From contig CAKQWG010000067.1 of assembly GCA_934278005.1 (NCBI GenBank), forward strand, positions 1 to 17,003: 17,003 nt of DNA, read 5' to 3'. Below are positions 14,601 to 15,896 of this stretch, piece after piece; positions within the stretch are counted from its first letter, which is position 1; every line of letters starts with the position of its first letter. Made by a program: the position numbers and the translations under genes. Origin of the DNA: an uncultured Pirellulaceae bacterium (GTDB lineage Bacteria; Planctomycetota; Planctomycetia; Pirellulales; Pirellulaceae). The notes under the pieces are model-generated. The model saw only the letters and a list, made by a program, of their open reading frames with translations, was not told the DNA's origin and did not search any database.

Positions 14601-15896
14601 GAGCATGCTGAGCAGACGCGTCCGCAGCCGGCGGGTGCAGGTACAAAAGCCAGTGCTTCCAGCAGCAGCAGCAGTAGTAGTAGTAGTAGTAGTAGTAGTA
14701 GTAGTAAGCGCCCCACAGGCAAGAAGAAATCGGCTCAGTCGAGCGAGGCTGACGACGGCGCTGCGGCCGATCAAACACTAGCTGATCAAGTACCCGCCGA
14801 TAAACTTCGCAGCTACACGGGCGAAGCGTTGATCCCATTGATGCGCACGGCGGAGTTCATCGAACGTGAGCAGTACGATCACGACGCTGCCACACAATCG
14901 CAAGATGGCGATTTAGATCTAGAGCAGATTGGCCGCGACACGTTGCTTCCGTGGCAAGCCGACGGTCGCCGCTGGCACACCAGAGATAGTTCGGATCGCA
15001 GCGGTGGAGCCATCCGTTGGGAGCGTGACATTCTGGTGAAAGTCGTCCAAGCCCTGGAGGGCGTCGACGGCTTTGCACCTACTAACTGGGACAGTCGCAA
15101 TATTGTGGAAGTGGCCGGACCGATCAAAAGCCGCGGTTGGTTTCTGCATGCGATTACCGCCGAGACATGGCTGTTGAAGCTCAAGTTCCGCGTGCCTCGT
15201 CGCTCCTACACTAAGGCACAGTTGTTGGCGATCGTCGACATGCCGACGCTCAATCAACTGCAGGGTGTTGAGATCTATGGCAATGAGCCGCGGGTGACCG
15301 CCAAAGCGGCTGGAGCTTGGATGGAGCTGGAGCTGCGCCCGCACACCTTGGCTGAGATCGACACGCCCGAGTTCTGGCGTTGGCTGCGCGATGCCGCGGC
15401 CGCTTTCTTGGGCAAGACCGCGCCGGCCTCCGAGAGCGTCACAGTGAGCGACCCGAAGGAGCATATGCCGTGGAAAGTTCTCAAGCAGCGTTGGCATTCG
15501 CTGCGCAAGGGCTTTCCAGCGGGGCGGACCGTGGTCTGGCCGGCAGAGACGCTGAGCGTATTCATTCAGTCCGTGCACCAGTCTGCCGGTGGTGGCAGGT
15601 GGCGTTGGGACGAGGAAACTACCGCGCGATATTTCCTTGCCGGCAGCAGCGACCCCTGGATCGTACTGCACACCAAGCGTCCCGAAGGGCTGATCGCCGT
15701 CCTGCACGGGCCACTTGGCTTTGACGCAGGCGACTTGGTGGAAGCCTTGCCAATTAAGCTGCAGACGACGCAGCGTGGCGATGACGGGCAACAGCTGCAA
15801 ATGGCCTTTACCGAACTGCAACAGCCGCGCGACGCCAATGTCAAAAAGCTGCTGACCCGGCACATGCAATACGTCAGCCGAGTGAAAGTGCCTTAG
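8610..15896 (+). CDS. uvrA: Tandem-duplicated UvrA with C-terminal extension
   Basis: UvrA is the damage-scanning ATPase of nucleotide excision repair and loads UvrB. It is normally about 940 residues and works as a dimer; this 2428-residue chain holds two. Half 1 (about 1-1045): Walker A at 33-40 and 742-749, LSGGE at 590 and 931, Walker B DE at 616-617 and 958-959, CxxC pairs at 336/339-360/363 and 841/844-864/867. Half 2 (about 1070-2000): Walker A at 1098-1105 and 1713-1720, LSGGE at 1561 and 1902, DE at 1587-1588 and 1929-1930, CxxC pairs at 1324/1327-1348/1351 and 1812/1815-1835/1838. All four ATP sites look intact. Residues 245-330 are an acidic/Ala-rich insertion. Ser2017-2032 is a linker. 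The rest, to 2428, is an unassigned region with two PW-x6-WH modules. Chlamydiae also have a duplicated UvrA (about 1790 residues). ATG 8610 leads directly into the conserved N-terminus. Confidence 0.97.
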   Translation: MDNATIEVRGAREHNLQNVSITLPRNQLIVFTGVSGSGKSSMAFDTLYAEGQRRYLESLSSYARQFIGQLPKPNVDYIGGLSPAISISQKSTSSNPRSTVGTITEIYDFLRVLYARVATGFCPACDIPIASQTRDQIVARLQDLRDSDEYLMLAPIVRGQKGEYRELFESLQRQGYARARIDGQVSRLADAPHLQRQQKHHIEVVVARFSPQQTARGKIADAVNESLKLGENTLIVIPWEDPEADAAANDAQTSDSAAATTAAATTASSLAAVDVGDHAELDLDEDSAAAQGIAAGTADDDLGDSDEAPVVAKPRRGRGRAAKQPGELVMSSEYACPQCGLSSMPPTPQLLSFNSPSGMCDVCEGLGRQFTFSPDLIVPDPSRSLRRGAIELLGSWNDLGRWQRHQLMSVGESIESEFNLQVGESLTTPWGELPEGVKQEWLYGTGERHITYTWRGGAKPMKYGGNFEGLIPQLLEQYRNAKSPTARKRFEKYMERRHCDACGGSRLNPQARQLRMRSSAPQASGSEWLNLPDLCRLPIDACLEFLKAIQLGETETRIASEALREIRNRLQFLLNVGLDYLSLERSAPTLSGGESQRIRLASQIGSGLVGVLYVLDEPSIGLHPRDNDRLIDSLKALRDQGNTLLVVEHDEDTMRAADLILDFGPGPGVRGGEIVSFGDMNTLASSAKSITGQFLTGKMSIPVPAERRSGNDKAIRVRGATHNNLKNIDVDIPLGKLVCVTGVSGSGKSSLINDVVVPVLRRQLHAAEDVPGEHRSLEGIEHLDKVIAIDQSPIGRTPRSNPATYVKVFDEVRSLFVELTEAKRRGYQAGRFSFNVAGGRCESCEGNGSNRLAMDFLADLWVTCPVCDGKRYNHETLQVKFKDKSIADVLDMDIQQAYELFENVPKIADKLRTLQDVGLDYIKLGQPSPTLSGGEAQRIKLAKELSRRGTGSTLYLLDEPTTGLHFHDIRMLLKVLQDLVDLGNTVLVIEHNLDVIRAADWLIDIGPEGGQAGGQVVFQGTPDDITKCAESHTGRSLAKHIAAGPVIASAKGAPSKNGAKQPRVKMPPPVLRVQGAVEHNLKDVSLEIPHYALSVFCGPSGSGKSSMAMDTIYAEGQRRYVESLSSYARQFVGQMPKPRVERIEGLAPAIAIEQKSVAHNPRSTVGTVTEIYDYLRVLMARLGEPFCPNCDIPVSNQSADDITNHLLDFEDGTRLVLTAPLVWQPNQDPEHMWQDLRTSGLVRVRIDGRTHSLDDVPSLSSTVSYNLEAVVDRITINQANRSRIAESVELALSLGNGNMYAIEPRDDQDEVHWTSTRHSQHLACRSCGHSLQLLTPQSFSFNSPLGWCSDCEGLGTQTGTSPALLLDPQLTLRQGAIRMWPGLDEASQAVMPVTELSMPMLQAFCKVVGISLDVPVQRLSAGQRRKLLYGTGDQWIELETDKGTRFEFQWKGLFPALEFASRMSPSLRTQLNPFVAEVACSACDGSRLNQDAGAVKFRGFTIGDFTQGTIKWFHEQVTGWKLTRREQEIAGELVRELASRSEFLLDVGLEYLSLSRPANTLSGGESQRIRLSSQLGSGLCGVLYVLDEPTIGLHPRDNLRLIGALKKLRDLGNTLLVVEHDRDVIESSDQICDFGPAAGRFGGELVAHGTPRQLMDTPSSVTGPFLNDTQTIPVPANRRSQDNGVIRLRGARCHNLQGVDLDLPLRRLTVVTGPSGSGKSTLINEVLYPALVKRLAKQSTKKIPFQSIDGVELVDKVIRVDQSPIGSNPSSTPATYTGVFDLIRQLYSQLPDARAAGYTPRQFSFNVPGGRCEKCEGAGQLRIEMHFLPDVWVQCDSCHGRRFTEDVLAIEYHGFSIHDVLEMQIGQAADVFDNIPKIRRTLQTLVDVGLDYISLGQSAPTLSGGEAQRVKLAAELSRPDTGKTLYLLDEPTTGLHFGDIIKLLEVLQRLVDLGNTVLVIEHNLDVIKAADWVIDLGPEAGSGGGQLVFAGTPEGLVEHAEQTRPQPAGAGTKASASSSSSSSSSSSSSSSSKRPTGKKKSAQSSEADDGAAADQTLADQVPADKLRSYTGEALIPLMRTAEFIEREQYDHDAATQSQDGDLDLEQIGRDTLLPWQADGRRWHTRDSSDRSGGAIRWERDILVKVVQALEGVDGFAPTNWDSRNIVEVAGPIKSRGWFLHAITAETWLLKLKFRVPRRSYTKAQLLAIVDMPTLNQLQGVEIYGNEPRVTAKAAGAWMELELRPHTLAEIDTPEFWRWLRDAAAAFLGKTAPASESVTVSDPKEHMPWKVLKQRWHSLRKGFPAGRTVVWPAETLSVFIQSVHQSAGGGRWRWDEETTARYFLAGSSDPWIVLHTKRPEGLIAVLHGPLGFDAGDLVEALPIKLQTTQRGDDGQQLQMAFTELQQPRDANVKKLLTRHMQYVSRVKVP
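14658..14705 (+). repeat. Serine-codon microsatellite in uvrA
   Basis: TCC is followed by four AGC and eleven AGT codons without interruption, giving 16 consecutive serines (residues 2017-2032). It joins the UvrA body to the C-terminal extension. A trinucleotide run of this purity is prone to slippage, but changes would stay in frame. Confidence 0.95.

Follow-up and report, generated by a model that had tools for sequence, protein, structure and literature searches.

A tandem pair of unnamed modules at the C terminus of a fused planctomycete UvrA

A fused UvrA pair and its tail

We analysed a 17,003-nucleotide (nt) stretch of DNA from an uncultured Pirellulaceae bacterium (contig CAKQWG010000067.1, assembly GCA_934278005.1), here called the window, in which one long open reading frame (ORF) encodes the DNA repair ATPase UvrA with a C-terminal tail. 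The protein has 2428 amino acids (aa), and its last ~360 residues are made up of a small domain of an unnamed family that is present in two diverged copies, which we designate modules D1 and D2 (Table 1). An initial annotation of the window had placed the tail on a single UvrA. The attachment to UvrA holds, but judging from its doubled domains and ATP-binding cassette (ABC) motifs, the host is a fusion of two UvrA copies. The protein scores 2551.3 bits against the UvrA equivalog NF001503 (cut-off 1147) and 2472.8 bits against the UvrA profile TIGR00630 (cut-off 729.8), and the Pfam domains UvrA_inter and UvrA_DNA-bind each match two stretches. Walker A motifs lie at residues 33 and 742 of copy 1 and 1098 and 1713 of copy 2, signature motifs at 590 and 931 and at 1561 and 1902, and Walker B motifs at 615 and 957 and at 1586 and 1928. 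With four of each motif in the chain, each copy has the two ABC cassettes and the UvrB-interaction and DNA-binding insertions of a UvrA.

Copy 2 is followed by a loop of variable length, the motif SYTGEAL (similar to the SHTGRSL that ends copy 1), a conserved lead and the two modules; the conserved tail starts near residue 2066. Among 90 proteins with a recognised loop, the loop spans 10 to 99 residues, counting its GTPE start, is mostly rich in lysine and arginine and is positively charged in 82, while the distance from SYTG to the C terminus is 359-367 residues in the 25 proteins listed. The loop of this protein contains a poly-serine run that had been taken for a linker preceding the domain. 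Because SYTGEAL and the conserved lead stand between the run and D1, it is not a direct linker; a run of at least eight serines was found in 1 of the 90 comparable loops, that of this protein alone, which by this comparison makes it strain-specific.

Table 1. Features of the fused UvrA and its tail, in window coordinates
Feature	Position	Strand	Basis or remark
ORF, tandem-fused UvrA with C-terminal tail, 2428 aa	8610..15896	+	NF001503 and TIGR00630 matches over several stretches
UvrA copy 1, residues ~1-1040	8610..11729	+	Pfam domains found twice; ABC motifs
UvrA copy 2, residues ~1071-2001	11820..14612	+	NF001503 best stretch 1071-2001; ABC motifs
Poly-serine run, residues 2017-2032, (AGT)n stretch within variable loop	14658..14705	+	not conserved
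SYTGEAL, residues 2068-2074, UvrA C-terminal motif where tail starts	14811..14831	+	sequence
Module D1, residues ~2106-2275, predicted YjbR/MotA-like alpha/beta domain with N-terminal cap	14925..15434	+	profile alignment, AlphaFold, fold comparison
PWQADGRRWH, first PW-x6-WH, in D1 cap	14949..14978	+	residue 2114
Module D2, residues ~2280-2428, diverged second copy	15447..15893	+	profile alignment, predicted structure
PWKVLKQRWH, second PW-x6-WH, in D2 cap	15468..15497	+	residue 2287

Duplication of the module and its predicted fold

As the initial annotation had observed, the motif PW-x6-WH occurs twice in the C-terminal region, and we found it nowhere else in the protein; among 20,000 residue shuffles of the tail, 15 held one occurrence and none held two. 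The further landmarks it had listed (IRW/VVW, TNWD/WRWD and GWFLH/PWIVLH) are where it placed them and align opposite each other in the profile alignment. Using profiles of 55 homologues each, hhalign aligned half 1 with half 2 at a probability of 98.5 and a score of 74.1 (97.6 and 76.5 with other options). Control scores were far lower: at most 19.7 for 100 column shuffles, 18.2 and 21.7 for reversed profiles, and at most 18.9 for 28 comparisons of 14 UvrA windows with both halves. The evidence for duplication is independent of the motif, since a score of 49.2 remained once the PW-WH part was removed. When the tail is aligned with its relatives (55 rows, 30 to 76% identity to this protein), PW...W-H is invariant in both halves. 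A second alignment, whose 32 rows combine D1, D2 and modules that naturally occur singly, likewise shows the cap residues P, W, H and W to be invariant. That the halves share only 12 of their first 60 aligned positions, with a single-sequence BLAST E value of 1e-4, might suggest chance or convergent low-complexity similarity. We regard this as highly improbable and as refuted at the profile level, where the scores far exceed those of shuffles, reversals and unrelated windows, the D1 profile finds D2 regions in relatives and vice versa (e.g. 2e-07 and 2e-09), and the order of structural elements is the same in both halves. The two modules proposed initially therefore stand, with their limits redrawn from 2113-2265 and 2286-2428 to those in Table 1.

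AlphaFold modelled D1 alone with a mean predicted local distance difference test (pLDDT) score of 92.2 and a predicted template modelling (pTM) score of 0.86, and the whole tail with a pTM of 0.56. Profile comparison and two AlphaFold models bear out the duplicated small alpha/beta domain that the initial annotation had envisaged. Neither of the two outcomes that it would have taken as refutation came about: compared by element order and by nearest solved structure, the predicted halves agree in both, and the whole region did not match one known non-repetitive domain. Each module is predicted to comprise a helical cap bearing PW-x6-WH, followed by alpha-beta3-alpha-beta2-alpha, a predicted fold that resembles YjbR/DUF419 and the ‘double wing’ DNA-binding domain of T4 MotA. 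For both modules, YjbR and MotA ranked above type III secretion chaperones, which hold peptides with the same general fold.

Sequence searches of Pfam, NCBIfam, PHROGs and the PDB with the tail returned no significant family (best PDB rows E 0.47 and 0.14), nor did the region as a whole match any one known domain. At E 10, Pfam gave no match of the YjbR/DUF419 family (PF04237) to the tail or to either half, and none among the 55 relatives. We rejected YjbR membership by sequence, as hhalign against 35 planctomycete YjbR sequences scored 12.4 and 9.1, with shuffles reaching 18.0 and 15.0. HTH_32 (PF13565) did not match this protein in the Pfam search; at E up to 10 it matched 15 of the 55 relatives without reaching the gathering score (best 32.1 bits against 33.7), and these weak matches lie within a module rather than spanning the region. 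Four relatives (P0155, P0168, P0183 and P0202) each have two such sub-cut-off stretches, the best one lying in the second half of the tail.

Distribution, history and gene splits

Scanning genome contigs yielded 482 relatives, of which 80 were used for analysis; the titles of these 80 name planctomycetes in 78 cases and a ‘bacterium’ in 2. The tail was detected in 23 of 294 genomes of the phylum sample (top six candidates per genome scored), 74 of 97 of the order sample and 55 of 59 of the class sample. By match spans, 40 class genomes have both modules, 12 the first only, 3 the second only and 4 none. In all nine first-only cases fetched, of the 12, at most 54 residues follow the module, which therefore leaves no room for a second. 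In two of the second-only genomes, 47 to 56 residues separate UvrA from the module; in the third, G282, the gap of 139 residues could accommodate a diverged D1. Among the tail-negative class genomes, G316 and G334 have a fused UvrA terminating soon after copy 2, G339 (L159) has a fused UvrA of 2451 aa whose ~350 C-terminal residues match neither module profile, and G305 has a single UvrA-like frame of 1112 aa. Of 49 phylum genomes, 12 are tail-negative with two UvrA_DNA-bind matches in a single frame (1858-2216 aa). Fused UvrA is thus more widespread than the tail. Two UvrA frames of 2495 and 2216 aa (G052:C210 and G053:C22), in genomes with no tail match, perhaps carry other extensions. In every one of the 26 fetched loci free of contig-end cuts, the tail shares a chain with the last ABC domain.

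In a tree of 66 modules, D1 and the first-only singles fall on one side (100/100) and the second-only singles fall within D2 (99/95 with one D2); bootstrap values had not settled, several branches are long and one D2 (L148) lies outside the others. Read with these caveats, the D1/D2 split places the duplication before the sampled class. With a root between D1 and D2, it would also mean that a module was lost in at least the second-only lineage. The tail evolves somewhat faster than the UvrA copies (e.g. 66% identity against 75 and 77%; 21 of 103 proteins).

The search for stand-alone modules that the initial annotation had proposed did find short proteins. They are probably not stand-alone modules, as they mostly carry UvrA names or lie on short contigs; most of the 18 inspected start within the domain or shortly upstream of it, and P0155, P0221, P0229 and P0168 start in UvrA. 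Our reading is that these gene calls are split or frameshifted. A viral origin was rejected: among 62 pattern matches, a viral contig scan gave 1 relative, on a viral-classed IMG/VR contig (L181). That contig terminates in a planctomycete uvrA, where an open frame combines UvrA ABC sequence with a one-module tail, more likely the bacterial edge of a provirus.

The fused gene itself is cut in 5 of the 59 class genomes (G032, G202, G145, G095 and G113; loci L146, L147, L152, L172-L177, L144 and L145). All five share one cut site in copy 2, which separates the two CxxC pairs of a zinc finger (residues ~1328-1347 of this protein). In the four genomes whose N-part end was fetched (all but G202), the N-part ends just past the first CxxC pair; in G032, G202 and G145 the C-part begins at an ATG of its own, shortly ahead of the second pair. 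G095 and G113 have an additional cut, giving three genes. In G304, G308 and G311 (L148-L150, L178-L180) the cut instead lies between ABC-I and ABC-II of copy 1, giving products of 638-681 and 1678-1734 aa. In none of the eight split-gene genomes is the tail separated from the last ABC cassette. We rejected trans-splicing, plain gene fission being simpler because the C-part genes of three genomes have their own ATG. Two further loci could be split genes or frameshifts: in G340 (L151) copy 2 occupies two overlapping frames (2030 and 683 aa) that meet between ABC cassettes, and at L071:5665-6621 D1 and D2 lie on separate frames (2026 and 182 aa), with any split falling inside the tail. Elsewhere in the window, an ORF of 1144 aa at 2417-5851 (-), presumably resembling a SecD-SecF fusion, has a DAQS repeat between its two halves.

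A possible DNA-contacting arm

UvrA starts bacterial nucleotide excision repair. According to PMC7835731, UvrA normally acts as a dimer, and there is still debate over how it recognises damaged DNA among normal DNA and passes it on to UvrB. We infer that the tail most likely provides an extra DNA contact, acting as one tethered arm of a covalent UvrA pseudo-dimer; we put the probability of this at roughly 40%. D1 and D2 would form this arm, tethered to the last ABC domain by the flexible, usually lysine-rich loop, and would touch the DNA duplex at additional points near the lesion. Since both UvrA copies are in a single chain, there would be one arm per UvrA pair, turning a normally symmetric dimer asymmetric, and the arm could keep the sensor on DNA or favour UvrB loading on one side. 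The predicted fold leans weakly towards DNA, and the loop, given its range of lengths and mostly positive charge, resembles a tether with nonspecific DNA affinity; a double-wing arm on a basic tether would fit DNA contact. Weighing against DNA contact, the modules are neutral in charge on average, the loop of this protein carries only +1, and similarity of fold shows no function.

The main rival, which we consider rather unlikely, is that D1 and D2 serve as docking sites for a partner protein, which could be UvrB, Mfd/RNA polymerase or a factor specific to the lineage, and not for DNA. The peptide-holding chaperones share the general fold, but YjbR and MotA outrank them for both modules, and no partner was identified, the genomic context not having been searched for one. 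It is less probable again that the modules are structural, packing against the final ABC domain or the dimer interface and setting the open or closed state of the fused UvrA. The constant placement of the tail on one chain with the last ABC domain, the conserved lead connecting SYTGEAL to D1 and the steady length from SYTG to the end would all agree with fixed packing, but the variable loop suits a tether better, tail-less fused UvrA exists in the 12 phylum genomes and in G316 and G334, and the whole-tail model has a pTM of 0.56.

Taking the DNA-contacting arm further, we propose, as a speculative and on balance unlikely extension, that planctomycetes evolved a covalent UvrA pseudo-dimer whose only arm, built of two double-wing modules, holds the duplex from one side and so gives a direction to damage search or UvrB loading, and that some lineages assemble the same machine from two or three chains, with one joint inside a zinc finger. 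A lineage with the dimer fused into one chain and one arm would be a natural asymmetric UvrA, in which each copy is separately mutable and the arm removable. Among the open-access papers listed for UvrA with fusion, C-terminal extension, gene fission, planctomycetes and Chlamydia, none dealt with this tail or with a split UvrA. As an unnamed domain family in 55 of the 59 class genomes, the tail therefore deserves a family model.

Compared with known systems, both copies share with bacterial UvrA (NF001503/TIGR00630) the Walker A, signature and Walker B motifs, the CxxC pairs and the profile matches; the protein differs in having two copies in one chain and a ~360-aa tail outside all NF001503 and TIGR00630 models. 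The fused double UvrA NF001885 (PRK00635, 1809 positions), which we take to be chlamydial, is likewise about twice the normal UvrA length, but the protein described here carries the tail and lies outside that family, because its score of 1304.9 bits is below the cut-off of 3054. Relative to YjbR/MmcQ/DUF419 (PF04237), the modules add the N-terminal PW-x6-WH cap, stand in tandem and are fused to UvrA. The C-terminal ‘double wing’ domain of T4 MotA, to which sequence searches detected no similarity in the modules, is a single domain of a phage activator, whereas here the modules are arranged in tandem on UvrA.
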